Shown here: positions 3,316-40,109 of the stretch, piece by piece
How positions within the stretch are numbered: position 1 is the first letter of the stretch
Layout: every line of letters starts with the position of its first letter
IMG/VR virus record: IMGVR_UViG_3300032163_000043
Location: 1-40,109 of that record
DNA length: 40,109 nucleotides
Reading direction: 5' to 3' (one strand)
Source: a virus
Notes under the pieces: model-generated
The model's input: the letters and a program-made list of their open reading frames with translations, nothing else
Told to the model about the DNA's origin: nothing
The model's database searches: none
Position numbers and translations under genes: made by a program

Positions 3316-3492
3316 ATGGGCAAGGAGGAGCGGCTTGAGGCGCATCGCGCCTACCAGGAGACTCTGGCCGCGTTGTGGCGCGCCTACTCCGAGGAGAGAG
3401 CCGAGGCGGATCGTGTCTACTTCGCCGCCAAGGATGGGGCGAGACGGGTCTACCGAGAGATGAAGGCCAGAGAGAAGGCGGCAAGGCTATGA
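3316..3492 (+). CDS. Hypothetical 58-aa helical charged protein
   Basis: ATG 3316 follows a GAGGAGGGACGG ribosome site. The protein (MGKEERLEAHRAYQETLAAL) is almost entirely charged helix rich in Arg, Glu and Ala, probably a coiled coil. Its stop overlaps the start of the next gene as ATGA. No family is recognised. Coding character (regular G/C third positions) and coupling support it. Confidence 0.65.
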   Translation: MGKEERLEAHRAYQETLAALWRAYSEERAEADRVYFAAKDGARRVYREMKAREKAARL

Positions 3493-4423: not shown

Positions 4424-5313
4424 CCGCTCTCTCCTCTCGCCGCGCCTCGATCGCTCTGCTCGCGGGGAGCCTGCTGGATTTGTCGGTGGTCACTTCGACG
4501 TGGCGACGGAATCCACTCTCCTCGGAGACAGGACCTCGTGCGCTAGCGCCGTTCCGGGAGCATCGCTGCGAGGCGTGCAAAGGGTCGGGGAAAGGGCGGG
4601 ATCGCTTCCGCCGTGAGGTTGTCTGCGCCGCCTGCGATGGGGCCGGGCGTCTGGCCTTCGACGCCTACACCGGCGAGCGGGTCGGGACGGCGGAGACGCC
4701 GACGGTGCTGCGGTTCCGCTCGGCGCTCTGCGACCGCTGCGGCGGTACGGGCGTCTGGAAGGGCGCGCGCTGCGAGACGTGCGAGGGTGACGGTCGGCGG
4801 GAGTGGTCGCCGTTCGAGCTGCATCTGCCGGGGGAGGACGAGCGGGTCGGAGCCGACGAGGGCGGACTACTGGCGCGGCCACGGCATCTGGCGGTGCTCT
4901 ATGCGGCCGGCTCGTACGCGGAGCTGGAGCGGGGGCTGACGGAGCTGCGTGCGGAGGCCCCGTCACGCCATCGGTTGTGGTGGTGGCGGTACGGGCGCGG
5001 TGACGAGTTGCCGCTTGCCGGGTGGGAGCGCTTCGAGCTTGAGCTGGCCTGGGTCTCCATCGAGCAGCGGATGCCGGCACGGGTCAGGGTGCCGCCGGCG
5101 ATCAGGGAGGGGCAGCGGCACTACGAGGCGTGGCTTGCGACCCGCAAGAACGGTTCAACCGATGCGAAGGCGGTCCAGGTTCGCGACGACCGGATGCTCA
5201 GGATGCGGGAGGCGGGCACGTCGCTAGAAGAGCTGGCCGCGGCGTTCAAGCTGACCCGGAGCGCCGTCTACGACGCGCTCGACCGGGCACGGCGGCGGGG
5301 CGAGGCGGCGTGA
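4420..5313 (+). CDS. DnaJ-type zinc-domain protein with C-terminal HTH, possible late regulator
   Basis: 297 aa from GTG 4420, which overlaps the previous stop as GTGA; ATG 4402 is an alternative. Residues 50-125 contain four CxxCxGxG repeats (CEACKGSG, CAACDGAG, CDRCGGTG, CETCEGDG), the complete cysteine-rich two-zinc domain of DnaJ chaperones, but there is no J domain. The C-terminus (MREAGTSLEELAAAFKL, TRSAVYDALDRARRR) is a helix-turn-helix. A zinc-repeat plus HTH protein as the last early gene, just before the packaging genes, recalls phage late-gene regulators such as Q antiterminators, some of which carry DnaJ-like zinc repeats. That role is inferred from position and architecture only. 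Confidence 0.7.
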   Translation: MTALSSRRASIALLAGSLLDLSVVTSTWRRNPLSSETGPRALAPFREHRCEACKGSGKGRDRFRREVVCAACDGAGRLAFDAYTGERVGTAETPTVLRFRSALCDRCGGTGVWKGARCETCEGDGRREWSPFELHLPGEDERVGADEGGLLARPRHLAVLYAAGSYAELERGLTELRAEAPSRHRLWWWRYGRGDELPLAGWERFELELAWVSIEQRMPARVRVPPAIREGQRHYEAWLATRKNGSTDAKAVQVRDDRMLRMREAGTSLEELAAAFKLTRSAVYDALDRARRRGEAA

Positions 5314-5350
5314 GTCCTACTTGCACATCGGGCATCGTGGAAGGGTCGGC

Positions 5351-5380
5351 TTGCACTCTGACCGGAGGCGGTGCTACGCT
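5351..5380 (+). promoter_or_regulatory. Candidate late promoter
   Basis: TTGCAC (5351-5356), an 18-nt spacer and TACGCT (5375-5380) lie in the 185-nt gap after the last early gene. The match is moderate, and the hairpin at 5451-5467 lies downstream of it. If the zinc/HTH protein acts as an antiterminator, promoter followed by terminator is the expected order. The assignment is tentative. Confidence 0.35.
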
Positions 5381-5450
5381 CCGCTCGGCAGATCCGAAAG
5401 GGTCTTGTCCACTTGTAGCGCCCCCTCTCATAGAACGAGTGCGCCCTGAG

Positions 5451-5479
5451 ACCGGCCATGCGCCGGTTTCCGTTTCTTC
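5451..5479 (+). terminator. Weak rho-independent terminator before the late genes
   Basis: A perfect 6-bp stem ACCGGC/GCCGGT (5451-5456 and 5462-5467) with a 5-nt loop is followed by a pyrimidine tract TTCCGTTTCTTC. The tract is interrupted, so efficiency is probably partial. Confidence 0.45.
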
Positions 5480-5498
5480 GGGACCACGGGAGGCCATT

Positions 5499-5696
5499 TT
5501 GCCGGGACGTCCCACGAGCGTTGAGTCCGACCTGCGCGCCGTAGCCTTCGTCGAGCACGTCGCCGCCGGCGCGGGCTTGCGGGAGGCCGCGGTCAAGGCC
5601 AAGGTGAAGCCCGCCCGCGCGCTCGATCTCGCCGACGCCCCCGACTTCTGGGCTCGCGTGTGGGCGCTACGACCGCAGAACCGGACGGCAGCGTGA
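5499..5696 (+). CDS. 65-aa helix-turn-helix-like protein at start of late operon
   Basis: Starts at TTG 5499 with GGGAGG five bases upstream. The body (AFVEHVAAGAGLREAAVKAK then VKPARALDLADAPDFWARV) has the shape of the HTH segment of small terminases and related phage DNA-binding proteins: a helix, a glycine turn, AGLREAA and a second helix. At 65 aa it is too short for a full terminase small subunit. It may assist packaging or regulate the late operon. Confidence 0.6.
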   Translation: MPGRPTSVESDLRAVAFVEHVAAGAGLREAAVKAKVKPARALDLADAPDFWARVWALRPQNRTAA

Positions 5697-5699
5697 CCC

Positions 5700-5885
5700 A
5701 TGTCCTCCGCGCTTGCCCCTTCCCGCCGACGCTGCGTTCCGGTCAGGCTCGCCGATGTGCCTTTGGAGAAGCGCCGTCACGCGGCCCGCGTGGCGATCAA
5801 GTGGGAAGACGACCCGCTGGAGCGCTGGCGGATCATCATGCTCGCCGAGCAGCCAGGGGAGCTTGTCGCCTGGGTCGCACCCTGA
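5700..5885 (+). CDS. Hypothetical 61-aa protein
   Basis: ATG 5700 lies four bases after the previous stop. No strong ribosome site is visible, so translation is probably coupled. The protein has an Arg-rich N-terminus followed by HAARVAIKWEDDPLERWRII and MLAEQPGELVAWVAP. No family is recognised. It sits just before the terminase small subunit. Confidence 0.5.
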   Translation: MSSALAPSRRRCVPVRLADVPLEKRRHAARVAIKWEDDPLERWRIIMLAEQPGELVAWVAP

Positions 5886-5889
5886 CCTG

Positions 5890-6576
5890 ATGGCGAGAGC
5901 AGTGGCAGTCAGAACGGTGAAGCCGAGCCGGGTGCGGATCAACCCTGCCATGATCGCCATCGTCGCCGACGCGGTTGGCAAAGGACTGAACCCTACGAAA
6001 GCGGCCGCGCTCGTCGATGTTCCGCCCCGGACGATGCGGCGTTGGGTCACCGAAGGACAAGATCAGATCGATGCTTACGCCGCCGCGATCGAAGACGCCG
6101 ACGACAGCTTCGAGCTGGGCACACAGGGCCAACTCGTGCTGACGCTGTTGAAGGCGAACGCTGAACGCGCGCTCCGCTGGCTGAAAGCACTTGAAGGGAA
6201 CGAGAGCGCCGACAGCGAGGACGCCGGTGGCGGCGGCACGCGCGTCGGCCTGGGCGGACGCTCAGGCTCCGGCGCGAAGGACTGGCAGCGGTTCGCGTGG
6301 CTGCTCGAACGGACGATGCCGGACGACTACGCGCTCCGTGACGGTTTCCGACGCGCAGAGATCGGGGCCGGTGACAGCAGCAAGGTCGCCTCGGAGGTGT
6401 CGCTGAATGCGGTCTCGCTCATCCTCGTTCAAGCCGGAGTCGCCCTCGGCCATCCCGTCGTGGATCAACTCGACGCAGGGGACGCTCGACCTCGGCGAGC
6501 TTTACCCGCCCCTGCGCCAGTACTGGCCGCACCTGCCGACGGCGAGCCCGCAGCAGGCAGCATTCCTAGTCCTTGA
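5890..6576 (+). CDS. terS: Terminase small subunit (module 1)
   Basis: 228 aa from ATG 5890. Residues 17-55 form an HTH (AIVADAVGKGLNPTKAAALV then VPPRTMRRWVTEG) typical of small terminase subunits that bind the packaging site. A helical oligomerisation region and a Gly/Ser-rich linker follow. The C-terminal 60 residues are Ala/Pro-rich. The family recognises phage DNA and recruits the large subunit to start packaging. Its 3' end overlaps the large-subunit gene by 170 nt in another frame, which is unusually long. An upstream in-frame ATG at 5713 would overlap the 61-aa gene and is less likely. Confidence 0.75.
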   Translation: MARAVAVRTVKPSRVRINPAMIAIVADAVGKGLNPTKAAALVDVPPRTMRRWVTEGQDQIDAYAAAIEDADDSFELGTQGQLVLTLLKANAERALRWLKALEGNESADSEDAGGGGTRVGLGGRSGSGAKDWQRFAWLLERTMPDDYALRDGFRRAEIGAGDSSKVASEVSLNAVSLILVQAGVALGHPVVDQLDAGDARPRRALPAPAPVLAAPADGEPAAGSIPSP

Positions 6577-7990
6577 CTGCCTCGAAGCTCTGTACGGTGG
6601 CAGCGCCGGGGGCGGCAAGTCCGATGCGCTCCTAGCCGGCGCCCTCCAGTACGTTGACCATCCGAAGTACGCGGCGCTGATCCTGCGGCGCACGTTCGCG
6701 GAGCTCGCGCTGCCCGAGGCGATCATGGCGACGAGTAAGGAGTGGTTGGCGCGCAGCGACGCGAAATGGAACGAGCAGGAGAAAACGTGGCGGTTCCCTT
6801 CCGGGGCGACGCTCACGTTCGGCTACCTGGAAAAGTCCGATGACGTGTACCGCTATCAGGGATCCGCATATCAGTACGTCGGCTACGACGAGCTGACCCA
6901 GTTCGAGGAGTTCGTCTACACCTACCTGTTCAGCCGTGTCCGCCGCACGAAAGACCATGATGTGCCGATCAGGATCAGGTCGGCGTCGAACCCCGGTGGC
7001 CGCGGGCACGCCTGGGTGCTGAAACGATTCCCGATCCTCGCGGGCAGCACACCCGCCGACCGGGAAGGCCGGATCTACATTCCGGCAAAGGCGTACGACA
7101 ACCCAGGACTCAACGTAGTCGAGTACGAACAGACCCTCTCGCATTTGGACGAGACGCTGCGGAAGCAGTTGATGGACGGCGACTGGGGCGCGTTCGAGGG
7201 CGCCGCCTTCCAACGCTTCGACGAAGCCACCCATTGTGTTCCCGCGTTCGCGGAGCTGCCCCCCTGGGATCGCTTCGAGTTCATGGACTTCGGCTTGAAC
7301 AATCCGACCGCCTGGTACCTCTGCCTGGCCGACTACGACGGCAACCTGATCGTTGCCGACAGCTTCTACAAGGCCGGGCTGCCGTCGGAAACAGCCCCGA
7401 TCATCCTCCGCTGCCGCAAGCCTGTCAGCGAGGGCGGGCGCGGCTGGGAACCACGCGACCGTGACGGCTGGGGCAACCGGAACGTCTGCTACGCCGACCC
7501 GGCGATCCAGCATCGCACCGGCGGACTGACACGCTGGGGTGAGCCTGCGACGATCGAGACCGAGTTCCTCGACCACGGCATCGACCTGATCCTCGGCAAC
7601 AACCATCCGCGCACCGGCTACGCCCGTGTGCGCGAACTGATCGAACCGGACGGAGCCCGGAAGTTCCCGCTCTGGCATCCGAAAGCCGGACAGTACGGAT
7701 CCCCCCGCCTGTTCGTCGTCAAGGAAACCTGCCCTGAGCTGGTCGAGCAGTTGAAGGCTGCGCCATTGCAGCCGATCGACAAACGCCACGCCGGCGAGAT
7801 GATCGATCCCAAATGGGAAGGAAGCCACGGGCATTCCTGCGCCGCGCTCAGGTATGGGGTTTTGAGTCGTGCCGCCCCTTCCGTCGAGCCGGAGCCCGAA
7901 GACGAGGATCCCCGGCGCGCGTTCCTGAAAGCGGCCACGAAGCGGGAGCAGCGGCAGCTCGGCCAGCAGAGAACCCTGATCGACGTGTAA
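6407..7990 (+). CDS. terL: Terminase large subunit (module 1)
   Basis: 527 aa from ATG 6407, preceded by CGGAGG nine bases upstream. The ATPase domain has Walker A GGSAGGGKS (residues 64-72), Walker B VGYDE (D161, E162) and the coupling motif SASNPGG (about 192-198). The C-terminal RNase H-like nuclease shows MDFG (D294) and YADP (D364). This is the packaging motor: it cuts concatemers and pumps DNA through the portal. No other in-frame ATG, GTG or TTG precedes the Walker motif, so the long overlap with terS appears genuine unless the sequence contains an error. The closest match by motif is the GGGKS-type family of many actinophages and podoviruses. Confidence 0.93.
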   Translation: MRSRSSSFKPESPSAIPSWINSTQGTLDLGELYPPLRQYWPHLPTASPQQAAFLVLDCLEALYGGSAGGGKSDALLAGALQYVDHPKYAALILRRTFAELALPEAIMATSKEWLARSDAKWNEQEKTWRFPSGATLTFGYLEKSDDVYRYQGSAYQYVGYDELTQFEEFVYTYLFSRVRRTKDHDVPIRIRSASNPGGRGHAWVLKRFPILAGSTPADREGRIYIPAKAYDNPGLNVVEYEQTLSHLDETLRKQLMDGDWGAFEGAAFQRFDEATHCVPAFAELPPWDRFEFMDFGLNNPTAWYLCLADYDGNLIVADSFYKAGLPSETAPIILRCRKPVSEGGRGWEPRDRDGWGNRNVCYADPAIQHRTGGLTRWGEPATIETEFLDHGIDLILGNNHPRTGYARVRELIEPDGARKFPLWHPKAGQYGSPRLFVVKETCPELVEQLKAAPLQPIDKRHAGEMIDPKWEGSHGHSCAALRYGVLSRAAPSVEPEPEDEDPRRAFLKAATKREQRQLGQQRTLIDV

Positions 7991-22600: not shown

Positions 22601-24037
22601 ATGACACAGAATCTGCTCACCCGCGAGCAGTGGGCGCAGAACCCAGCCTCACGGAAGCCCGGCGCGACATACGAGGGAATGGTCTCGTGGGTCACGAAGA
22701 CGCGCGCCAGGCGCGCCGCCGCACGCCTCGCCGCCGCCCCGGACGCGCTCGCCCCGACCCCCGAGAGCGCGATCACCGCTGTCCCCGCCGCCTACCAGCC
22801 CACCCCCCCCGCCGCTGTCCCCGCCGCCTACCAGCCCACCCCCGACAACGTCCTCGGCGAGCAGGTCTCCCAGAACGTGCATTCGCAACTTGACCCGCTG
22901 ATCGCGGAGATCATGCGTAGCACCGCGCAGCAGGCAGGGCAGATCGGCGGGCTAACCGACACGTACGCTGCCCGGCTCGCCCCGTTCGAGGGTGCCGCGA
23001 AGGAAAGGTACGCGACCGCCGCCGCCGGTAGCGCAGGGGTCGCACAGTCGCTCGCCGACCGGATGAGCGGTGCGGGTACCGACGCGGGAGCAGGCTTGCG
23101 CGCGAAGCTGGAAGCGATCAACGCGCCCGGCGCGCTCGTCGAGAACATCGCCGGTGGTGCCGCCGACTTCGGCCGCAACGCAGGCAACGCCGGCTACTCC
23201 ACCGACGCCTCCGCGTTGCAGGAGCTGATCGCCGCCGGCGCGACCGCGCAGAACTACGCCGGAGCGTTGCCGGGCCTCGCACGGCTCGAGGGGCAGCAGC
23301 AGGTCGGCAGGGCGCAGGGTGAGGGGCAACGCCAGATCGGTGAGGTTCGCTCCAGGATCCCCGGTATGACGGCTGATCTTCTCGCGGGCGCGCGCGCGAC
23401 TGAGCTTCAGAAGGCCGGGTTGGCCGCTGACTTCGTTTCGGGGAACCGAGACACTGAGCTGAAGAAGGCAGAGTTGGCCGCCGGTCTGACCGAGAGCGCA
23501 CGCAATCGCGAGGTCACTAAGGCGACCGTCAGGACGTCGCGGGAGATCGGATTGCAGAAGTCGGAAGCGGACAGGCTGAAGGCGGAGGCTGACGCTAAGG
23601 CGGCCGCCGACAAGTCCGCGCAGTCATGGCAGAAGATCCAGCAGACCGGAGACAGGCTGAAGCTCCAGGCGAGCAACGCCTCCTTCAACCAGGGGATCGC
23701 GGCGGCCAGGGTCAACCTGTCGCAGAAGCAGTACGGGCTGGCGCTGCAGCGGGAGGCGCGGTTGGCGAAGGGGAAGGGCAAGGGCGGGTTCACCGCCGCG
23801 CAGCTCGTCGATATGCAGGCAACGGCATACGACACCGCACTCTCCGCCTTCCAGGGCTCCTACCGGGACAAGAACGGCAATCAGGTGACGATCGACCGGA
23901 AGAGCGCGACCGAGGTCCTCAATGATCTGCTCGGTCACGGGACTCCGTTGAGCATCGCGCTCAAGGCGGTGAAGCGGCTCGGCAGCCGCCCGGACGCTCC
24001 GCCCGACTGGCAGGTCGCTACCGGCTGGATCAAGTAG
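22601..24037 (+). CDS. Helical internal virion protein, 478 aa
   Basis: ATG 22601 behind CAGGAGAAGC. Residues 60-90 repeat AAYQPTP with Pro/Ala linkers. The centre is a long Ala/Gln/Lys-rich helical region (RATELQKAGLAADFVSG, RDTELKKAELAAGLTES, LKAEADAKAAADKSAQS). The C-terminus has a small folded domain (SFQGSYRDKNGNQVTID-like, then VLNDLLGHGTPLSIALK). It resembles helical ejection proteins of short-tailed phages and sits directly before the largest one. Assignment rests on composition and order. Confidence 0.6.
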   Translation: MTQNLLTREQWAQNPASRKPGATYEGMVSWVTKTRARRAAARLAAAPDALAPTPESAITAVPAAYQPTPPAAVPAAYQPTPDNVLGEQVSQNVHSQLDPLIAEIMRSTAQQAGQIGGLTDTYAARLAPFEGAAKERYATAAAGSAGVAQSLADRMSGAGTDAGAGLRAKLEAINAPGALVENIAGGAADFGRNAGNAGYSTDASALQELIAAGATAQNYAGALPGLARLEGQQQVGRAQGEGQRQIGEVRSRIPGMTADLLAGARATELQKAGLAADFVSGNRDTELKKAELAAGLTESARNREVTKATVRTSREIGLQKSEADRLKAEADAKAAADKSAQSWQKIQQTGDRLKLQASNASFNQGIAAARVNLSQKQYGLALQREARLAKGKGKGGFTAAQLVDMQATAYDTALSAFQGSYRDKNGNQVTIDRKSATEVLNDLLGHGTPLSIALKAVKRLGSRPDAPPDWQVATGWIK

Positions 24038-27000
24038 ATGCCGGAGACCGTCCTCAGCCGCGCCGGGCGGGTGCTGCGACTCGCGCAGCAGAGGCCGTCC
24101 AAGTCGATCTACAGCAGGGACAGGCGCTCCCCGGATGTGCAAGACCGCGCGGCAGCGATCACGGCGACGAAGGCGAGGAGCGCCGCAGAACTGAAGCAGC
24201 TCGGCTTCCTCGGCGCGAGCAAGGCCGACAGGGAACGGCAGGCACGCGACCTTGCCAAGAGGATTCAGAAGGCGAACCCCGTACAGGCGAAGCCGGTCAG
24301 TCAGAAGGAAGCGTTCTACATGGCGGCGGCGAAGCCACAGACGATCGCCGGCTATGACCCGCTGAACATCCCCGGCGTCCGCTACGCGGCCGGGCAGACG
24401 CGCGAGGTTGCTGACGCGCTCACGCAATCGATCCCCGGCACGTTCGGCCTCGCCCGCGACCTGCTCGCAGATGTCCACTCCGGGAAGGTGTCACCGCTCG
24501 GCCTGCCCTCGCCGGGGTCGAAGACCGAGCGCAACCTGAAGGAGATGACGCGCTCCAACCTCGCTCTCCTCAAGGAGCCCTGGAAGCATCCGGCGTTGAT
24601 CGCGCTCATGTTCGGACGCCCGCTTACGGCCAGCGCGGCAACGGTGGCGTCCCGCGGGCTTGCGGCCGCCCGCGCCGCCGAAGCGGGCACTCCCGCGCTC
24701 CGTGCCTTGCTGACCAAGCCGAAGCCGGGGGAGGCTTTCGGAGAGCCGCGCACCTTCCGCTCCGGCGGCATCGAGACGCCGGGCAACTACTCGAAGGCCG
24801 CCGACATGGAAGCGTTCCAGCGCGCGGTGGACATCGTTCGCAAGCGGCATCCGAAGCTCGGCCTCTCCTCCGGGCCTGTTGTGACGCGCAACCTGCCCGC
24901 CCGTGTCGGCTGGGAACTCTCGCAGAACCGGAAGATCACGGATGCTGTCTCGTCCGCGGAGGCGCTCGGACTCGCTGCCAAGACGAAGCTCTCGAAGTTC
25001 CCGCGCAAGCGGCACGGGCAGCAGGTCGCACAGACCGCCGCTCGCGTCGAGTTCGAGGGTGCGACCGTGGCGGAACGGATCGCGTTGCATGAGCAGGTGA
25101 TGGCGACCGCCAAGTCCCCGGTGAAGCGCGCACGGCTAGCCCGCAAGATCGGCCTCTTGCAGCAGGCGCAGAAGCTCCTGGAGGCGACGCCCGGCGGGCC
25201 GCAGGTGAAGCTCTCGAACGCCGCCCTGCGCGAGTTGATGGCGAAGGCGGAGAAGGTCGCGGCCACGCGCACGGAGTCCCTGCTCGCGCGTGGGGCGATC
25301 AGCCCGGAGCAGGCAGCCTCCCGCGTGCAGGGGCCGGGGCGGATCGTGAAGGGCGCACGCTTCCTGTATCCGAAGGACGCAAAAGCCCGGCTACGTGAGA
25401 TCGACTCACAGATCAACGCTCTCGGGAAGTCTCGGATGACGGGCGTTCAACGTTTGAGCGACGTCCGAACTGGAACGCGCAGCACTCGCGCAGCGGAGCG
25501 CGGACTGTCCAAGGCCAACATCAAGGCCAAGCGTCTACTCATCGCGCCTGCCACAGCGGCTACAGCGCGTGAGGCGGCGACGGCGAACCGGGCTGCCGCC
25601 AAGGCGAGCGCTCTGCGCGCGAAGACCGCGGCGCTGGCGCAGCGCGGTGAGAAGCTGAAGCCGCTCTACGAGCGCGAGCAGCGGCTCGCCCAGATCGCCT
25701 ACGAGGGTTTCCAGGCCGGCCAGGTCGGGGAGGGTGTGCTCGCACGCTCGCAGGCACGCTTCGGCCGGATTCGCAAGGAATACGAGAAGACGGCGAGCGC
25801 ACTAATCGCGCACCGTGACGCGCAACTTCAGGGCTTGCAGGCGCTTGAGCAGCAGATCGCAAGTGAGGCGAAGATCGCAGCGGACAAGGCCGGCAACCGG
25901 GCGCAGGCTGCCGCGATCAGAGTCGCAGCCGAACAGCGGCTCAGGGAGACGGTACGGGAGCAGCAGCAGATCCTCCTCGATCAGAAGAAGGCGCTCGAGT
26001 CTCTCAGCGAGAGCGAGAATCTCGTGCGTGAGCTGCGCGGGCGCGTTGCAGCGTCGTCCGGCAGGCTTGTCGGTGCCGAGGGATACTCCGCGGGCAAGGT
26101 TCGCGTCCCCTACACGGCCCGGTATGAGCGCACACCGCTCGGCCGCATGTCGCTCGGCGCCGGAAAGGTGATCGGCCAGCCGCGCGAACTCGGCACCGTC
26201 ACGCACGCCTTCAAGGGCGAACGTCTCCTCAGCGGCAACTTCCGCGACGACGCGCTCCGCCTGATCGCCGAGGACGCGCTTGCCGAAACCCGGCAGACCG
26301 GCAAGCTCGCGTTCCGCGACCAACTCCTGAAGGCCGCAACGGCGGAGCGGCTGAACGAGCATCAGATCGCAATGCGCGTCGGCAAGCTCAAGGATCCTGC
26401 GGCCACACAGAAGATGCGAGACCTGCTCGCCCGGCCCGAGGACGTGCTCCCGTCGCCGCGAATGCGGGCCGCCACCGAGGGAGACCCGTTCAAGCAGGTG
26501 CGAGAGCTGATCTTCCCGACCGAACTGCACGGTATCCCGGTCGCTGAGATCCCCGCCGGCAGTTCGATCCCCGGTATCAAGTGGGTCGATGAGCGATACC
26601 TGGAGGGAGCGAACCTGCCGCCGATCGCTACCGGCGCGGCGGGTAGGCCCGGCCTGAAGCAGCTCGCCTGGACCGGGCACTCGATCAACAACGCGACCCG
26701 CCTCTCCTACTTCTACTTGGCGCTGAAGTACGGCACGCCGAACATCCTCGGGCAGATCTCCCTCAACTTCATCCAGGCCGGGGCGAAGGTGCCGCTCGCC
26801 TGGAAGCGTGCCGCCACGATCCACCGTGACTTCGGCGCCCGCGACGTCGGGGTTGTCCGTGAAGCGATGGGAACCGGCATCGGTCGCTCACTGCTCGGCT
26901 CGCAACGGGGCGCGCTCGGCTTCACGTCCTCGAAGCTCGCTGCCGCTTGGTCGGTCATCCTCGACGTTCCCTTCCGTGACACCGCCTGGGTCGCGGAGGC

Positions 27001-34674: not shown

Positions 34675-34710
34675 GGCTCACCGCAATCATCGCCCTCGCC
34701 GGCCTATTCG

Positions 34711-34932
34711 GTGTTGGCATCGTCCTCGCGCGACTGGATCGCGGAGCCGATCACATTGAAGCGTGGGCTGACCGGAGCGAAGCCGGATCGCGTCTGTCGC
34801 TGGCTGTTCGAGGTCATGGGCATGGAGTCCGCCGACGAGCTGCACGACTTGTACCCCGGCACGGGCGCGGTGACGGTGGCATGGGAGCGGTGGCGGTCGC
34901 AAGGATCGCTACTCGCGGAGGCATCCTCGTGA
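34711..34932 (+). CDS. Hypothetical 73-aa protein with DELHDLYPGTGAV motif
   Basis: Starts at GTG 34711 (TTG follows). PITLKRGLTGAKPDRVCRW and LFEVMGMESADELHDLYPGT match a block I recall from larger actinophage proteins (LFPGSGAV-type), so this may be a shortened version of a longer family. No clear ribosome site is seen. Another frame from GTG 34671 is also open, with a hydrophobic start, and a frameshift joining the two cannot be excluded. The stop overlaps the next gene as GTGA. Confidence 0.5.
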   Translation: MLASSSRDWIAEPITLKRGLTGAKPDRVCRWLFEVMGMESADELHDLYPGTGAVTVAWERWRSQGSLLAEASS

Positions 34933-35087
34933 GCGAAGCATCCGCCCGTTTAGAGCGCAAGGCTGACGAGATCCGTGCCATAGCGCAAGAACACGGCGCC
35001 GACCGTGACTACGACCTCGTTGAGCTGATCCTCCGTCTCGTCGCCCGCGCACTCGACGACATCGCAGAAGAACGGGAGGCCGCATGA
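34929..35087 (+). CDS. 52-aa helical protein ending EEREAA
   Basis: GTG 34929 overlaps the preceding stop. The product is a charged helix (ARLERKADEIRAIAQEHGAD, LVELILRLVARALDDIAEER). Its last codons (GAACGGGAGGCCGCATGA) include the ribosome site and start of the following gene and are repeated exactly at the end of that gene. Function is unknown. Confidence 0.6.
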   Translation: MSEASARLERKADEIRAIAQEHGADRDYDLVELILRLVARALDDIAEEREAA

Positions 35088-35338
35088 CTGACAACTACGT
35101 TCTCGATTGCTCGTTCGATACCGGCGATGGCATGTGGTGCTTCTGCCCCATCGAAATGGACGCTGACGGGAATGTCACGAGCATCATCACCGGACTGAAC
35201 TTCCTTTCCGATTCTCCACCCAAGGGCGGGCACTTCGTAGGAGTTGTCCACCAGGACGGTCAGGAAGCCTGCGATGAGTGGTGCGAGAAGAACAGGGCTG
35301 TCGTTGATCGTCTCTTGGCGGAACGGGAGGCCGCATGA
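35084..35338 (+). CDS. Hypothetical 84-aa protein ending LLAEREAA
   Basis: ATG 35084, coupled by ATGA. A strand-rich N-terminus (DNYVLDCSFDTGDGMWCFC) contains three Cys. A helical end follows (EACDEWCEKNRAVVDRLLAE). The terminal EREAA codons and overlapping ATG repeat those of the preceding gene. The C-terminal LLAERE is also shared with the next five genes in part, so these proteins look mosaic. Confidence 0.6.
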   Translation: MTDNYVLDCSFDTGDGMWCFCPIEMDADGNVTSIITGLNFLSDSPPKGGHFVGVVHQDGQEACDEWCEKNRAVVDRLLAEREAA

Positions 35339-35844
35339 CCACGCCGACCCATTGCGGCCATCCCGAGTCCGGCTTCGTGACCTCTGGAGAGGGCACGTCG
35401 TACTGCCCGGCGTGCGCGGACGAGTACGAGACGCGGCTGACCCCCGGTTTCGACGCTGGCATCGAGGTTGGCGGGACGACGCACCGGAAGCCTGACCTCA
35501 CCCCCGAGCGGATCGCGGAGCTGTCGATGTGCATGGACGCCGCTCCTGACCGCGCGTTCTGGCACGAGTACCACGACCTTGCCTTCGCCCTCCTCGCGGA
35601 GCGGGAGAGGCAGGGGGAGACTTTCAAGCGGCAGCTTCGCTTGGGAACCGAAGACGTGCGCCGCGAGCGCGATGCGTTGCGGGCCGAGAACGAACGGCTG
35701 CTGGCGGCGCTGGCGGGTGCCTACCGAGAGAGCGATCAGGCTGGGCGCGCAGCCATCGGCCGTCTGTGTGACGTGCATATTGATCGCTCCGGGGCGTTGC
35801 TGGGGCAGGTTCGCGCCCTTGCGGAAGGAGACACCGATGCCTGA
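35335..35844 (+). CDS. 169-aa mosaic protein with zinc-like N-terminus and DLTPER block
   Basis: ATG 35335, coupled by ATGA. Residues 1-33 have CGHPESGFVTSGEGTSYCPA with a third Cys, a likely zinc ribbon. Residues 54-63 are PDLTPERIAE, the same block that starts three downstream genes, encoded by the same DNA but here internal. A coiled coil (LLAERERQGETFKRQ, RRERDALRAENERLL) follows. The protein ends AEGDTDA in a junction cassette. It appears to be a fusion of modules found separately downstream. Confidence 0.6.
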   Translation: MTTPTHCGHPESGFVTSGEGTSYCPACADEYETRLTPGFDAGIEVGGTTHRKPDLTPERIAELSMCMDAAPDRAFWHEYHDLAFALLAERERQGETFKRQLRLGTEDVRRERDALRAENERLLAALAGAYRESDQAGRAAIGRLCDVHIDRSGALLGQVRALAEGDTDA

Positions 35845-36040
35845 GCCCACTGACACCCGCATCCGCCGCGACAACACGCGAGACGCCCTTGCGTTAGCCC
35901 GCGCCTACAAAGACGAGGACAGTGAGCGTGGGTTCCTCGCGCGACAGGTCGTCCGTCTTGTCGAGGAGGCCGAGTGTGTCTGCGGCGAGATCAACGCGCG
36001 CCATTGCCCCGTGCATCAGGAAGGAGCCCCCGATGCCTGA
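35837..36040 (+). CDS. 67-aa protein between junction cassettes (EGAPDA end)
   Basis: ATG 35837 lies inside a junction cassette; GGAAGGAG is the ribosome site and the preceding stop overlaps by 8 nt. The body (RIRRDNTRDALALARAYKDE, GFLARQVVRLVEEAECVCGE) is helical and charged with three Cys. It ends in the next cassette with QEGAPDA. Function is unknown. Confidence 0.6.
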   Translation: MPEPTDTRIRRDNTRDALALARAYKDEDSERGFLARQVVRLVEEAECVCGEINARHCPVHQEGAPDA

Positions 36041-36275
36041 CCTCACCCCCGAGCGTGTCGCGGAACTTCAATGGCGCATTGGTCGTGGCATCGCTCCTGC
36101 ATCCCCCGACGCCCTGGCGGCGCTCAACCTCTTGCTCCCCGCCCTCCTCGCGGAGCGGGAGAGGCTGCGGGGAATCTTGCGCGACGTGCTCGCGGATTCT
36201 GGAAGCGGAGGACTGTCGGTACACGTCATCTGGGCCATCGAGGCCGCTCTCACGGAGGAGGACACCGATGCCTGA
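36033..36275 (+). CDS. 80-aa MPDLTPER-family protein, copy 1
   Basis: ATG 36033 in a junction cassette. The first 45 residues (MPDLTPERVAELQWRIGR, then GIAPASPDALAALNLLLP, ALLAERERL) are nearly identical in DNA and protein to the gene at 36864. The rest (RGILRDVLADSGSGGLS, VIWAIEAALTEEDTDA) differs. The conserved part is helical, and the shared LLAERERL suggests a coiled-coil interaction segment. Function is unknown. Confidence 0.65.
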   Translation: MPDLTPERVAELQWRIGRGIAPASPDALAALNLLLPALLAERERLRGILRDVLADSGSGGLSVHVIWAIEAALTEEDTDA

Positions 36276-36723
36276 CCTCACCCCCGACCGGATCGGGGAG
36301 GCAAAGGCGCTGTCCTTCGATGCTCGGAGGCACGGCTACTTCGAGACGGCCGACACCATCGACGCCCTCCTCGCGGAGCGGGAGACGCTGCGGGAGGCGC
36401 TGCGGCTTCGGATGATCGAAGCGGGGCGTCACACGACAGAAGACCGTGACACCTACGCCGATGGGTTCTTCAACGGTCTGGCTGCCGCCCTCGATGAGTT
36501 CGACCGAACCCCCGCTCTCGCTGCCCCCACGGAAGGAGACACCTTCGAGAGTCACCCCGGCGTTGACCAATGCACCGCACAGCGCGTACATCCGCTCTCG
36601 TCTGACTACAAGGTGCGGTGCCAACTCGCCGCCGGGCACGCGGCGGATCACGTCAACGACGGCTGCAATTGGACGGACGCTTCGGCCTACGCGCTCCCCC
36701 CGGAAGGAGACACCGATGCCTGA
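36268..36723 (+). CDS. 151-aa MPDLTP-family fusion with an internal junction relic
   Basis: ATG 36268 in a junction cassette. Residues 1-90 (MPDLTPDRIGEAKALSFD, IDALLAERETLREALRLR, YADGFFNGLAAALDEFD) form one module ending APTEGDT, encoded by DNA that matches a junction cassette except that the start codon is lost. Residues 93-151 (GVDQCTAQRVHPLSS, VRCQLAAGHAADHVNDGC) form a Cys/His module that may bind zinc. It looks like two former genes fused at the relic. It ends PEGDTDA in an intact cassette. Confidence 0.65.
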   Translation: MPDLTPDRIGEAKALSFDARRHGYFETADTIDALLAERETLREALRLRMIEAGRHTTEDRDTYADGFFNGLAAALDEFDRTPALAAPTEGDTFESHPGVDQCTAQRVHPLSSDYKVRCQLAAGHAADHVNDGCNWTDASAYALPPEGDTDA

Positions 36724-36871
36724 CAGATGGAGGGCTATCGCGTTTCGCTATGCCGCCGCGTTTGGCGTGTACGCCGTCGTCCCTCGCTCATGGGGTTTGG
36801 CTGCCAACGTAGGGCTTCCGCTGCTGGCCTTTCTCGTTCTGATCCTTGCGGAAGGAGCCCCCGATGCCTGA
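36716..36871 (+). CDS. 51-aa membrane protein between junction cassettes
   Basis: ATG 36716 in a junction cassette. After MPDRWRAIAFRYA come hydrophobic stretches (AFGVYAVVPRSWGLAANVGL, LLAFLVLILAEG), consistent with two membrane passes. The C-terminal AEGAPDA is the junction-coded tail, which here directly follows a transmembrane segment. Function is unknown. Confidence 0.6.
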   Translation: MPDRWRAIAFRYAAAFGVYAVVPRSWGLAANVGLPLLAFLVLILAEGAPDA

Positions 36872-37274
36872 CCTCACCCCCGAGCGTGTCGCCGAGCTTG
36901 AGCGGCGCATTGGTCGTGGCATCGCTCCTGCATCCCCCGACGCCCTGGCGGCGCTCAACCTCTTGCTCCCCGCCCTCCTCGCGGAGCGGGAGAGGCTGAT
37001 TCGGGAACGCGACGAAGCCGAAGAGTGTGTTACGCAAGCGCACAAAGACAGCAACGGTCTGCGTCGCCAACGAGACGCCGCCCGCACTGCGCCATCTCCG
37101 GGTTTCTTGGACGACGTGCGTGTGCTCATCACCGACTACTACTCGGGGCTGCCCGAGCACCGTGAGCCGGCTATGGCGGCTGCCGCCCGTTTGGACGAGA
37201 TCCTGAACGACGAGCACGGCAACCCTCGCGCCGCCGCTCTCGCTGCCCCCACGAAGGGAGACACCGATGAGTGA
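36864..37274 (+). CDS. 136-aa MPDLTPER-family protein, copy 2
   Basis: ATG 36864 in a junction cassette. Residues 1-45 duplicate the gene at 36033 (five base changes, clustered in codons 9-13). A coiled-coil extension (RERDEAEECVTQAHKDS) and a second helical block follow (FLDDVRVLITDYYSGLPE, MAAAARLDEILNDEHG). It ends LAAPTKGDTDE in a variant junction where the next gene starts with ATGAGTGA. Function is unknown. Confidence 0.65.
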   Translation: MPDLTPERVAELERRIGRGIAPASPDALAALNLLLPALLAERERLIRERDEAEECVTQAHKDSNGLRRQRDAARTAPSPGFLDDVRVLITDYYSGLPEHREPAMAAAARLDEILNDEHGNPRAAALAAPTKGDTDE

Positions 37275-37545
37275 GCCAACGATCAGCCTGCGGGACTTGC
37301 TGAAGAGGCCCGTCACGAGGCGGCGGAGTCTCTACTTCGTTGAACTCGACCCCGCCGAAGTCGCCGCGCTGGTTGAGGCGGTCGAGGCGCAGCTTGAGTA
37401 CGGCGAGGGCGGGCACTCCTGGCGCTGTGAGTACCGCACCGCCGAGAAGGGCTGGAAGGAAGGCGACCCGCCGATCATCGAGTGCAGGTGCGGACTTGAC
37501 CGCCTGTACGCCGCCCTCGCGCGCTTCACGGAGGAGGGGACGTGA
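37267..37545 (+). CDS. Hypothetical 92-aa protein
   Basis: ATG 37267 in the last, variant junction (GAAGGGAGACACCGATGAG). Residues 20-45 (RRSLYFVELDPAEVAALVEA) form a strand and helix. The C-terminal half has HSWRCEYRTAEKGWKEG and IECRCGLDRLYAALARF with three Cys. This may be a small zinc-stabilised fold. Coupled to the next gene by GTGA. Confidence 0.6.
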   Translation: MSEPTISLRDLLKRPVTRRRSLYFVELDPAEVAALVEAVEAQLEYGEGGHSWRCEYRTAEKGWKEGDPPIIECRCGLDRLYAALARFTEEGT

Positions 37546-37742
37546 GCGGCAAGCGACACCGGCACGAGTTCACCGCGCTCTGGTGGCACTTCGGGCCGTA
37601 CGGCCTGCAGGACATTCACGTTCACGGCTGCCTCGATGAGGAGTGCGATCGGGTGCTGATCGGGTCAGGGCGCTCGTGCGACGGCGCTCCTGCTTCGCAT
37701 CATCGCGAGACGCTATCTGCGCCCGCGGAGGCGTGCTCCTGA
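37542..37742 (+). CDS. 66-aa His/Cys-rich protein
   Basis: GTG 37542 overlaps the previous stop. The sequence is rich in His and Cys (GKRHRHEFTALWWHFGP, QDIHVHGCLDEECDRVL, CDGAPASHHRETL), pointing to a metal site. The stop overlaps the next start as TGATG. Function is unknown. Confidence 0.55.
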   Translation: MSGKRHRHEFTALWWHFGPYGLQDIHVHGCLDEECDRVLIGSGRSCDGAPASHHRETLSAPAEACS

Positions 37743-37828
37743 TGGCCGTCTGCCCGTGGTGTCTGATCCGTGGCCGTGTTGTCAGGGAGTGCCTGCTATG
37801 CAAGGGCTCGGGGCGAGCCTCCTCCTGA
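37742..37828 (+). CDS. 28-aa double CxxC peptide
   Basis: ATG 37742 overlaps the previous stop by 1 nt (TGATG). The product MAVCPWCLIRGRVV, then RECLLCKGSGRASS, has CxxC and CxxCxGxG, a minimal half of a DnaJ-type zinc domain. Its end repeats the DNA CTCCTGATGGCCGTCTGC that also began it, giving the next gene the same start. Probably a zinc-binding peptide. Confidence 0.55.
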   Translation: MAVCPWCLIRGRVVRECLLCKGSGRASS

Positions 37829-37971
37829 TGGCCGTCTGCGCGAAGTGCGGGCACGACGTGCGCCTCCACATGCCCGGATCGGTGTGCGGGCGGATGCATT
37901 GCTACTGCCGTGAGTTCGTCCCCACGCCCAGCCCCGCGCCTGCCCCCACGACGAAAGGAAGCGATGCGTGA
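37828..37971 (+). CDS. 47-aa Cys-rich peptide with MAVC start
   Basis: ATG 37828, same TGATGGCCGTCTGC start as the preceding gene. MAVCAKCGHDVRLHMPG and VCGRMHCYCREFVP provide five Cys and several His, consistent with one zinc site. A Pro/Ala tail follows. The stop overlaps the next gene by 8 nt, behind an AAAGGAAG ribosome site. Confidence 0.55.
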   Translation: MAVCAKCGHDVRLHMPGSVCGRMHCYCREFVPTPSPAPAPTTKGSDA

Positions 37972-38245
37972 CAGAGCCGAGACGGTCGAGGAGGTCGAAC
38001 GGATCATGCGGGCCGCGCTCCCGACCCCGTACGACGAGTTCTTCCCCGCCCACAGCCTCAACGTGGACGGTGTCCGGGACGTCGCGCTCAACTTCGCCGG
38101 CGCGAGCGCGCAGGGACGCTACCCCGACCTCTCCGCGCGCCGGCAGCGGGTGATCGTGCAGCACGTCGCGCAGGTGTTCCTCGCCGCGTTCGAGCTCGGC
38201 ATCCGCGTCCACGAAGAGACCGTCGAGGAAGGGACCCTGCCGTGA
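37964..38245 (+). CDS. Hypothetical 93-aa protein, start of the very G/C-ending segment
   Basis: ATG 37964 behind GAAAGGAAGCG. It is helical and acidic (ETVEEVERIMRAALPTPYDE, RRQRVIVQHVAQVFLAAFEL, ending HEETVEEGTLP). From this gene rightward almost every codon ends in G or C, unlike the preceding genes. No family is recognised. Coupled to the next gene by GTGA. Confidence 0.65.
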   Translation: MRDRAETVEEVERIMRAALPTPYDEFFPAHSLNVDGVRDVALNFAGASAQGRYPDLSARRQRVIVQHVAQVFLAAFELGIRVHEETVEEGTLP

Positions 38246-38742
38246 AGGACACACCGCTCGTCGGCGCCGTCGACCTGTCCGGTCTGAAGGAAGGCCTCGG
38301 CCCACGGGAGGCCGCCGCGTTCCGAGACGAGCTGATGATGATGGCGCAGACCCGTGAGCTCGCGCTCCGCGACCGTGTCACAATCAGCGCTGAGAACGAA
38401 GGGCTCACCCGCGCTCTCGCCGCGCTCGTCTACCGGTACGGCACCGACGATGGGGCGGGGAAGTGCTACCTGACGATCGACCATGACGAGTTCCACGACG
38501 CGATGAGCCGGGTCGCCGCCTTCTCGCTCGACCCGGGCTCCCAGCATCTGCATCTGGTCGTCACGCTCCGCTTCGACGGGGAGTGGACGGTGTCCGTGGA
38601 CGAGCCGTGCGAGGACGACCTGGACACGCTCGAGCGGTTCGAGGCGCCGCCGGATGTCGTCACGAGCCCGGGCGGGTGGCGGATCCTCGTGCCGACCGCG
38701 CTCGGCTGGCGCGTCGCCACCTGGGCACCCGGGGAGGCGTGA
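38242..38742 (+). CDS. Hypothetical 166-aa protein
   Basis: GTG 38242, coupled. The N-terminal half is helical (GPREAAAFRDELMMMAQTRE, NEGLTRALAALVYRYG). The C-terminal half is strand-rich (SQHLHLVVTLRFDGEWTVSV, GGWRILVPTALGWRVATW). No catalytic motif is seen. The stop overlaps the next start as TGATG. Confidence 0.65.
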   Translation: MKDTPLVGAVDLSGLKEGLGPREAAAFRDELMMMAQTRELALRDRVTISAENEGLTRALAALVYRYGTDDGAGKCYLTIDHDEFHDAMSRVAAFSLDPGSQHLHLVVTLRFDGEWTVSVDEPCEDDLDTLERFEAPPDVVTSPGGWRILVPTALGWRVATWAPGEA

Positions 38743-38936
38743 TGGAGAACCGCACGGTACGGGTGGACTTCCGGGCGACACCGACGCAGAAGGCCCGCTG
38801 GCGGCAGGCGGCGACCGCGCTCGGGCTGAAGGAACTGGCGGACTTCTACCGGGACGCGATCGACGGCTTGGCCGACGTCGTTCTCGCCCCGCCCGTGTCC
38901 GACCGTCCCTCAAAGGTGCTATCGTCCGAAGAGTGA
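38742..38936 (+). CDS. 64-aa ribbon-helix-helix-like protein
   Basis: ATG 38742 behind GGGGAGGCGTG, overlapping the previous stop by 1 nt. RTVRVDFRATPTQKARWRQA and ALGLKELADFYRDAIDGLA give a strand and two helices with the pattern RVxxTxxQKARWxxAA, as in RHH regulators and plasmid mobilisation accessory proteins. As the last gene before a terminator and the second terminase, it may regulate that module. Confidence 0.65.
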   Translation: MENRTVRVDFRATPTQKARWRQAATALGLKELADFYRDAIDGLADVVLAPPVSDRPSKVLSSEE

Positions 38937-38999
38937 GGTGTCCGCCGCCTGACGGCGACCTCCGCGGTCTGCGCTGAGCCGTCCCTGTGGCGGCTCTTC
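38935..38999 (+). terminator. Two-hairpin terminator before the second terminase
   Basis: First hairpin: GAGGT (38935-38939) with ACCTC (38958-38962), enclosing CGCCG/CGGCG. Second: GAGCCG (38976-38981) with CGGCTC (38991-38996), a 9-nt loop and TTCG after it. The U-tract is poor, so termination may need both structures or be partial. Confidence 0.5.
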
Positions 39000-39002
39000 G
39001 CA

Positions 39003-39031
39003 TTGTGGCCGTCCGTCTGAGCGTCTACCCT
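39003..39031 (+). promoter_or_regulatory. Candidate promoter of the second terminase module
   Basis: TTGTGG (39003-39008), a 17-nt spacer and TACCCT (39026-39031). The start would fall at about 39038, next to ATG 39039, again giving a leaderless message; no ribosome site precedes the gene. The match is moderate. Confidence 0.4.
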
Positions 39032-39038
39032 TCCGGTG

Positions 39039-39461
39039 ATGGGCGAGAAGACCGACAACGTCGTGCCGATCGGGAACGGCCTGGTCGGCAAGAACGGCAA
39101 GCCGTTGCACGGTGCGGCCGGCCGGAAGCTCACCCCTGAGCAGATCGAGCAGCTGCAGGCGGCACGGCGGGCGAAGGCCGAGGAGACCGGGGACCATCAC
39201 GCCGGCTTCGGAGGTCGTCGCCGCCGCCCGCGCATCTCCGATGTGACCGAAGACGCGCTCAAGAAGCTCGAGCCGCGCGCGCTGCAGGTGATCGAGGAGA
39301 TGCTCTACGACGAGGACGTGAAGATCCGCCGTGACGGCGCGTTCCGGCTGCTCGCGTACACGAAGGGGCAGCCGACGCAGCGGGTCGAGACCGACCATGT
39401 CGAGCGGATCGAGTACGTGCTCGCCGAGCACGAGCCCGCCCCGGTCGCCTCCGGTGAGTAG
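39039..39461 (+). CDS. terS: Terminase small subunit (module 2)
   Basis: 140 aa from ATG 39039 (GTG 39036 is directly before it). The N-terminus is basic and Gly-rich (KNGKPLHGAAGRKLTPEQIE), followed by a charged helix. The C-terminal half (DALKKLEPRALQVIEEMLYD, VKIRRDGAFRLLAYTKGQPT, QRVETDHVERIEYV) has the repeated-helix pattern ending GxPTQRVE seen in small terminases. It shows no similarity to the small subunit at 5890. The end overlaps the large-subunit start by 8 nt, which supports the pairing. Confidence 0.75.
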   Translation: MGEKTDNVVPIGNGLVGKNGKPLHGAAGRKLTPEQIEQLQAARRAKAEETGDHHAGFGGRRRRPRISDVTEDALKKLEPRALQVIEEMLYDEDVKIRRDGAFRLLAYTKGQPTQRVETDHVERIEYVLAEHEPAPVASGE

Positions 39462-40109
39462 CACCGTCTCCGACAAGAAGACCCTCCGTGTCGTTGACAC
39501 ATGGACGCGGGCGGGGATCACCCCGAACCCGAAGCAGCGGGAGTTCGCGGAGGTCTGCGAGGAGGCCGGGGCGGAGGAGGTCATGTTCAGCGGCTCGATC
39601 CGTGCGGGCAAGTCGCAGGCGGCCGCGAAGAAGCAGGTGCGCTGGGCGTGGGAGTACCCGGGCACCACCCACCTTGTCGTCCGGCGCACGTACCCGCAGC
39701 TGCGCGACTCGACCTGGCCGCTGTTCAAGAGCGGCGACGGTGGGATGCCCGCCGCGATCCCCGACGAGCTGATCGCGCAGACGAAGATCGGGGACTGGGA
39801 GATCCACCTGAAGAACCGGTCGAAGCTGATCTTCCGTTCCGCCGACGACCCGCAGGAGGCGATGAAGAACGTCCGCAACGTCACCCTCGCGAGCATCTTC
39901 GTCGACCAGATCGAGGAGTTCGACCGGGACGCCGACCCGGAGCTGTACGAAACATGGCTGTCGCGGCTGTCGGATCCGCGCGGGCCGCGGAAGCTGATCG
40001 CGGTCGCGAACCCCGGCCCGACAACGCACTTCGCGTACAAGCGCTTCCATCCCGACAGTGACGAGCGGGAGCCGCAGACCCGGTTCATCAACGTCACGAT
40101 CTACGACAA
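39454..40109 (+). CDS. terL: Terminase large subunit (module 2), cut by right edge
   Basis: GTG 39454, overlapping the small subunit stop; open to the right edge with 218 codons visible. The ATPase shows Walker A GSIRAGKS (47-54), an arginine-rich strand VVRRTYPQLRDS, Walker B IFVDQIEEF (D151), and a coupling motif VANPGP (184-189). The nuclease half would lie beyond the window. The Walker A sequence and surroundings differ from the large subunit at 6407, so this is a second, unrelated packaging ATPase, not a duplicate. Confidence 0.88.
   Translation, partial: MSSTVSDKKTLRVVDTWTRAGITPNPKQREFAEVCEEAGAEEVMFSGSIRAGKSQAAAKKQVRWAWEYPGTTHLVVRRTYPQLRDSTWPLFKSGDGGMPAAIPDELIAQTKIGDWEIHLKNRSKLIFRSADDPQEAMKNVRNVTLASIFVDQIEEFDRDADPELYETWLSRLSDPRGPRKLIAVANPGPTTHFAYKRFHPDSDEREPQTRFINVTIYD

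Follow-up and report, generated by a model that had tools for sequence, protein, structure and literature searches.

How phage genomes come to be mosaic at gene borders has been debated for a long time. Short boundary sequences at module borders, proposed decades ago to guide homologous recombination between phages (Susskind and Botstein 1978, and Clark et al. 2001 for lambdoid phages, cited in PMC3029335), could not be found at most phage gene borders (PMC3029335), and this is why random joining followed by selection became an attractive answer. Here we describe a locus in the IMG/VR virus record IMGVR_UViG_3300032163_000043 (positions 1 to 40,109; this whole stretch of 40,109 nucleotides is called the window) in which six consecutive gene boundaries carry near-identical copies of a short joint cassette. 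The locus combines repeated frame-matched borders within one genome with two recent whole-gene differences that fall on them, and might be a rarely seen trace of possible gene shuffling. If so, it would be a directly testable case of boundary sequences and would offer an easy route to operons whose genes can be reordered.

Conserved repeats at ribosome sites are known as start-associated sequences (SAS) from cluster K mycobacteriophages (PMC3203893) and cluster EF Microbacterium phages (PMC7302621), and their authors suggest a role in translation. SAS measure 13 bp, read GGGATAGGAGCCC or GGGAAAGGACCCC and are often found with an upstream extended start-associated sequence (ESAS), which has inverted repeats in cluster K and is present there at about half of the SAS sites; the accessible parts of both reports propose no role in gene exchange. 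Citrobacter phage Mordin carries a 26-bp repeat upstream of eight small gene starts in one genome arm (PMC4611695). A gene-sized indel between repeats of ~50-60 bp at gene ends is described for the close pair Island3 and Brujita, cluster I mycobacteriophages (PMC3029335).

A joint cassette at six consecutive gene boundaries

By our reading of the sequence, abutting genes on the + strand form a string within 35000-38200 of the window. Six consecutive boundaries of this string, at 35823-37274, each carry the 22-nt cassette GGAAGGAG(A/C)C(A/C)CCGATGCCTGA (joints J1 to J3 and J5 to J7, Table 1). One block thereby holds the C-terminus and stop of the upstream gene, a Shine-Dalgarno (SD) site and the start of the next gene. 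The SD site is AAGGAG, followed by a 6-nt spacer and ATG, and at all six joints the upstream stop and the downstream ATG overlap by 8 nt (ATGNNTGA). Changes in SD site and spacer are tolerated among the six copies, and the sixth, at 37253, bears ATGAGTGA.

An earlier model-made note on this DNA (the original prediction) had described six near-identical 24-bp blocks encoding EGDTDA or EGAPDA plus stop in one frame, and AGGAG, ATG and MPD, MPE or MSE in the next. The six blocks are where it placed them and the starts were found (MPE, MPD at four joints, and MSE). The repeat is real as well, but its core is 22 nt long, and the two named C-termini are seen at four of the six joints, the full series being EGDTDA, EGAPDA, EEDTDA, EGDTDA, EGAPDA and KGDTDE. 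The cassette as an observation is real and uncommon.

With up to 3 mismatches allowed, GGAAGGAGACACCGATGCCTGA occurs five times in the window against a mean of 0.00 in 100 dinucleotide-preserving shuffles. Among 2,080 pairs of 29-nt gene-start windows from this genome the mean identity was 10.7 and the 99.5th percentile 19; pairs formed by the cassettes and the related joint J8 scored up to 26 and occupied the top eight places. At J1, J5 and J7, which join unrelated gene bodies, identity is 89-100% at positions -12 to -1 before the ATG and is back to background within ~20 nt on either side. As the near-identity extends to positions that translation does not need, it points to a recent common descent of the cassette copies. 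A rough codon-usage gene finder, blind to the repeats, placed the starts of six of the seven genes at these same positions and missed the 51-aa gene.

A strict repeat detector (18 of 23 nt together with an SD site) was run on 72 sources (0.96 Mb) and called only the window and the phages TM4, Adephagia, AnnaSerena and Mordin, in which start repeats are already reported or which are members of clusters having them. A looser detector (22 of 34 nt, no SD site) was dropped, its output being dominated by low-complexity GC-rich matches. The original prediction had asked for a search of its 24-bp core in all phage genomes. Our wide search for the cassette found exact matches in five viral stretches, one in each (the near relative described below included); a looser core was matched in 44, and bacterial genomes gave 18 single matches. 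Apart from that relative no multi-copy array was found in the collections searched, hence the exact cassette sequence is private to the pair in these collections. The array DNA did not match annotated phages except for stretches of 37-40 nt in three records; the one of these that we inspected, in Microcystis phage yong2, proved to be a generic start context.

Differences from the one near relative fall on joints

Pattern, protein and gene-string searches of IMG/VR gave a single near relative, IMGVR_UViG_3300036760_000354 (G003), which was compared as its reverse complement. It is about 99% identical to window 35587-40109 and matches the rest of the window in patches only, at up to 82%, apart from a few short blocks.

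G003 is without window 36019-36849, which holds three genes. In the window, the genes starting at 36033 and 36864 share a 149-bp stretch at 97% identity, which reaches from the joint to an internal block encoding LLAERE; beyond it they are unrelated (copies A and B, Table 1). The left flank of G003 equals the window through 36018, and from 36062 it follows copy B at all five sites that distinguish A from B, which places the crossover within 36019-36061. This 43-bp interval is made up of the cassette and the start block, i.e. the first codons of the gene.

The other difference is an extra 85-aa gene in G003 (MNATQ...), which lies between two perfect copies of the 24-bp sequence CCCCCACGACGAAAGGAAGCGATG covering SD site and ATG; the window has one copy. 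The extra gene has no confident family match and is by eye unlike the other modules. It stops before the downstream repeat, and its C-terminus is therefore not encoded there.

Throughout 35590-36018 and 36850-37966 (1,546 bp) only two substitutions separate the pair, and both fall in the 43-bp interval (p about 0.0008 for substitutions spread uniformly). These substitutions, at 36036 and 36053, are private to G003 and found in neither window copy, and the interval looks like it was patched from a third cassette copy. The private substitutions also argue that the short form of G003 is not a collapsed assembly of the window sequence. The pair does not tell gain from loss for either difference.

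The original prediction had proposed to align related genomes at the junctions, where it expected recombination to insert, delete or reorder whole genes and keep the frame. Both clean differences indeed fall on joints (the 43-bp interval and the 24-bp repeat over SD site and ATG), and neither a fixed gene order with neutrally drifting joints nor breakpoints elsewhere is what the comparison gave. Two differences in content at joints thus agree with the proposal, but free reordering is not shown by them, and preservation of the frame is not general either, as two fossil joints (see below) look like fusions and the extra gene ends before its repeat.

Comparison with described systems

SAS and the cassette are both short and conserved, recur at the ribosome sites of several small non-structural genes of one genome and share an AGGA(G) core; the cassette lies shortly upstream of six consecutive starts and of that at J8. 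SAS are 13 bp long, mostly intergenic, scattered and GGG-led, whereas the cassette has 22 nt, is coding in both neighbours and occupies six consecutive joints. With up to 2 changes allowed it does not match the SAS consensus: GGAAGGAG(A/C)C(A/C)CCG has only AGGAG(CCC) in common with it, at best ~9 of 13 positions when compared by eye. Of 33 SAS sites with an annotated start, 4 overlap an upstream gene (TM4 1/10, Adephagia 3/15, AnnaSerena 0/8), one of them running fully through it, against six of six cassettes, all of which lie inside the upstream gene. The earlier statement that SAS lie upstream of starts and do not encode both neighbours is accordingly right as a tendency. No inverted repeat of at least 12 bp was found in 35780-37320, and so none like that of the ESAS. 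The cassette works like SAS in its position and departs from them in consensus, placement and the ESAS.

The boundary-sequence model likewise has a short common sequence at gene borders guiding recombination, and here the same short sequence does stand at the borders of the modules that differ from G003, as the 43-bp interval and as the perfect 24-bp repeat. In addition the cassette recurs many times in one genome and also supplies stop, SD site and start. Island3 and Brujita differ in having a single pair of repeats at 3' gene ends, where the window has a whole family of joints, each supplying SD site, start and stop, and two such events. Mordin also has a long start repeat at several small genes, but by annotation it is almost entirely intergenic and involves no overlap of stop and start.

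Integrons depend on an integrase and structured attC sites. They resemble the array as strings of promoterless genes with standard ends in which gain and loss are possible. The array has no inverted repeats, and no integrase was found among the window proteins scanned (a subset of the genes), so neither attC sites nor integrase are matched here; a reading of the joints as recombinase sites or as an integron was dropped on the lack of inverted repeats.

The 8-nt ATGNNTGA overlaps, the SD sites inside the upstream genes and the lack of promoter-like sites in 34700-38300 (sigma-70 consensus only) are as expected of a translationally coupled string. The only terminator-like site in the region lies on the opposite strand and is below the shuffle mean. 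Rfam gave no match in the array region, and a structured-RNA reading was rejected on this ground. In the literature covered, with subscription papers outside it, we did not find a within-genome family of joints that combine stop, SD site and start and are associated with gene gain and loss.

Module genes, fossil joints and further joint types

The coordinates of all features are given in Table 1.

Table 1. Joints, module genes and repeated blocks of the array (window coordinates)
Feature	Position	Strand	Remarks
Joint J1	35823..35844	+	GGAAGGAGACACCGATGCCTGA; ends gene 35335-35844, starts 35837-36040; also in G003
Joint J2	36019..36040	+	GGAAGGAGCCCCCGATGCCTGA; ends 35837-36040, starts 36033-36275; G003 version ATGACTGA
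Joint J3	36254..36275	+	GGAGGAGGACACCGATGCCTGA; ends 36033-36275, starts 36268-36723
Joint J5	36702..36723	+	GGAAGGAGACACCGATGCCTGA; ends 36268-36723, starts 36716-36871
Joint J6	36850..36871	+	GGAAGGAGCCCCCGATGCCTGA; ends 36716-36871, starts 36864-37274
Joint J7	37253..37274	+	GAAGGGAGACACCGATGAGTGA; ends 36864-37274, starts 37267-37545; identical in G003
Related joint J8	37940..37971	+	contains CCCCCACGACGAAAGGAAGCGATG; diverged relative of the cassette
Fossil joint	36531..36552	+	GGAAGGAGACACCTTCGAGAGT; lies in frame within gene 36268-36723 and has lost start and stop
Fossil start block (DLTPER), frameshifted joint	35474..35522	+	inside gene 35335-35844; matches the J2/J6 start blocks over 49 nt at 82% identity
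Module gene, 67 aa, Cys/His-containing	35837..36040	+	no confident family match
Module gene A, 80 aa, DLTPER/LLAERE family	36033..36275	+	absent from G003
Module gene C, 151 aa, fused through the fossil joint	36268..36723	+	absent from G003
Module gene, 51 aa, probable membrane protein by hydrophobic stretch	36716..36871	+	absent from G003
Module gene B, 136 aa, DLTPER/LLAERE family	36864..37274	+	
149-bp repeat, copy A (joint and N-terminal half to LLAERE)	36019..36167	+	
149-bp repeat, copy B	36850..36998	+	97% identical to A
LLAERE block, copy 1	35590..35607	+	left limit of 99% identity with G003
LLAERE block, copy 2	36144..36161	+	
LLAERE block, copy 3	36367..36384	+	
LLAERE block, copy 4	36975..36992	+	
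Second joint type, copy 1	35070..35088	+	GAACGGGAGGCCGCATGAC; ATGA overlap
Second joint type, copy 2	35321..35339	+	GAACGGGAGGCCGCATGAC; ATGA overlap

The module proteins have no convincing family in Pfam, PHROGs or NCBIfam. It had been claimed that the gene bodies are unrelated save for shared DLTPER and LLAERE blocks. This is so for the bodies at J1, J5 and J7, but the genes at 36033, 36268 and 36864 and the second part of the gene at 35335 form one DLTPER/LLAERE family, and the genes at 35335 and 35837 are weakly similar. The DLTPER start block sits directly after the joint at J2, J3 and J6, and the internal LLAERE block is present in four exact 18-nt copies.

Two further copies seem to be dead. 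The fossil joint at 36531 reads GGAAGGAGACACCTTCGAG, and at 35474-35522 a frameshifted joint links a start block to a zinc-finger-like N-terminus; both look like fusions of neighbouring genes. These two, the related joint J8 and the second joint type had no place in the original prediction.

The second joint type GAACGGGAGGCCGCATGAC was seen to encode ...EREAA-stop and to resemble the internal LLAERE block. The LLAERE block itself may be a fossil joint of this type.

Possible recombination genes

An exonuclease gene (phrog_298, E 2.5e-39) adjoins a Gp3-like gene in the window phage. The original prediction had called the array recombinase-free; this is unproven given the exonuclease gene, and homology exchange would need a recombination or annealing enzyme. 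As a separate observation, genes resembling by eye a RecB-type nuclease and a RecT-type annealing protein lie at 23042-25462 of the G003 reverse complement (minus strand).

Integrity of the contig

Two different large terminases are encoded in the window. One, at 6407-7990 (phrog_979), is complete; the other, at 39454-40109 (phrog_2), is cut by the contig end. The latter lies in a segment 99.4% identical to G003 and is G003's own terminase, from which we conclude that the contig joins the sequence of one phage, up to ~35589, to that of a G003-like strain. Because of this second large terminase, the point near 35590 where the identity ends on the left, at the LLAERE block, is not counted as a third natural recombination event. 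The join may be a real recombinant, a (hybrid) concatemer or an assembly chimera. All six cassettes lie to the right of it, on the G003-like side. G003's own record contains J1, J2 and J7; J3, J5, J6 and the fossil at 36531 are known only from the window record.

It was also observed, at window 38005-40083, that differences from G003 are unevenly spread, with none in ~1,500 bp of array flanks and 11 substitutions over the following 2,171 bp, five of them in 39501-39639.

Discussion

What the comparison of these DNA sequences shows is the cassette, joints common to seemingly unrelated gene bodies, the presence or absence of whole genes between repeats, and apparently fused genes at dead joints. 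The best reading seems to be the old boundary-sequence model combined with a SAS-like element that runs through coding sequence. We suggest that the array consists of small, probably accessory phage genes strung together by translational coupling, and that their standard joints also serve as short homologies through which genes are gained, lost and fused; we put the probability of this at roughly 0.6. Ribosomes stopping at the upstream TGA would re-initiate at the overlapping ATG. The repeats, perfect over 22-24 nt or 43 nt long with the start block, could supply the short homology needed for recombination or single-strand annealing; the shortest segments reported to pair are 23-27 bp long with Red-beta and 31-34 bp with RecA (PMC3945230), and the lengths of the cassette repeats are close to the former. 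Exchange during replication or between co-infecting phages would then let genes be gained or lost in register and still be translatable, and a faulty exchange or a mutation in the joint would fuse neighbours, as may have happened at the two fossils. The LLAERE block might act likewise inside genes, swapping N- and C-terminal halves.

Several points weigh against this reading. There is one relative only, and hence two joint events. The 43-bp interval makes up 43 of the 149 bp of shared repeat, so that a crossover there is expected in 29% of cases without any preference for joints. Switches between related and unrelated sequence are also marked by LLAERE, inside genes, which suggests that breakpoints are not confined to joints and means that a module need not be a whole gene. 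Among the window proteins scanned, none was recognised as an annealing protein. Further, the window may be partly chimeric, with the left join near 35590 being an assembly chimera.

A related possibility is that the array is a kept shuffling device, in which frame-matched ends let ordinary short-homology recombination insert, delete, reorder or fuse accessory genes that nevertheless stay translated. It would then be an integrase-free array with counterparts of other cassette sequence in unrelated phages, perhaps Microcystis phage MinS1 and IMGVR_UViG_3300025030_000439; we consider this rather unlikely. Tandem duplication and decay, which we consider unlikely, would have multiplied one gene with its joint, after which the bodies diverged or were replaced and the joint was kept by coding and translation constraint; the repeats would be a relic without a part in shuffling, and the G003 difference ordinary unequal crossing-over between recent duplicates. 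Such a history fits the four genes that share DLTPER/LLAERE, the two that are 97% identical over 149 bp and the weak similarity of 35335 and 35837. It fits poorly with J1, J5 and J7, where bodies without detectable similarity are joined by a near-identical cassette with sharp edges, and with an extra G003 gene that stands between 24-bp repeats and is by eye unlike the other modules.

The joints could instead be a start-associated regulatory element, the sequence at the starts being read by a phage or host protein or RNA, as has been suggested for the SAS of clusters K and EF, with gene gain and loss as a side effect. The two elements share position, the AGGAG core and AGGAGCCC (in J2 and J6), and each is found at runs of small non-structural genes (PMC3203893, PMC7302621). 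This explanation appears quite unlikely to us, since SAS sites are scattered and GGG-led, with 29 of the 33 not overlapping an upstream gene, while all six cassettes are coding and consecutive, no ESAS-like inverted repeat was detected in the array, and the copies tolerate changes in SD site and spacer. An assembly artefact, in which some or all of the window-only modules and the left join stem from reads of related phages mis-joined at repeats, would account for the two large terminases, the second in a G003-like segment that starts at the repeat block near 35590, and for the location of all three differences from G003 at repeats. We also regard it as improbable, on the presence of J1, J2 and J7 in both records, the G003 substitutions at 36036 and 36053 that neither window copy has, the extra G003 gene that the window lacks, and a reading frame kept throughout. 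The breakpoint repeats of 22-43 bp are, moreover, short compared with usual assembly word sizes.

Possible standard joints in other phages

In Microcystis phage MinS1 (record 5135-6018) three consecutive gene starts show 8-nt overlaps of stop and start. Two of these joints share a CTGCCCGGCGGGGGTGA core with ends that are alike on both sides, and encode LPGGG(D/E)S..-stop and MAD/MTD. On the minus strand of IMGVR_UViG_3300025030_000439 there are five ATGA joints, with starts at 3487, 2038, 1216, 289 and 122, which share AGGAG and a (C/G)ATC spacer end and give similar C-termini such as KEPAS, KERPS and QERAS. These two cases suggest that standard joints of other sequence exist elsewhere.

Within the window itself, two adjacent short zinc-ribbon-like open reading frames have a 31-nt start region CTCCTGATGGCCGTCTGC in common (37731-37761 and 37817-37847, 84% identity), another repeated joint.

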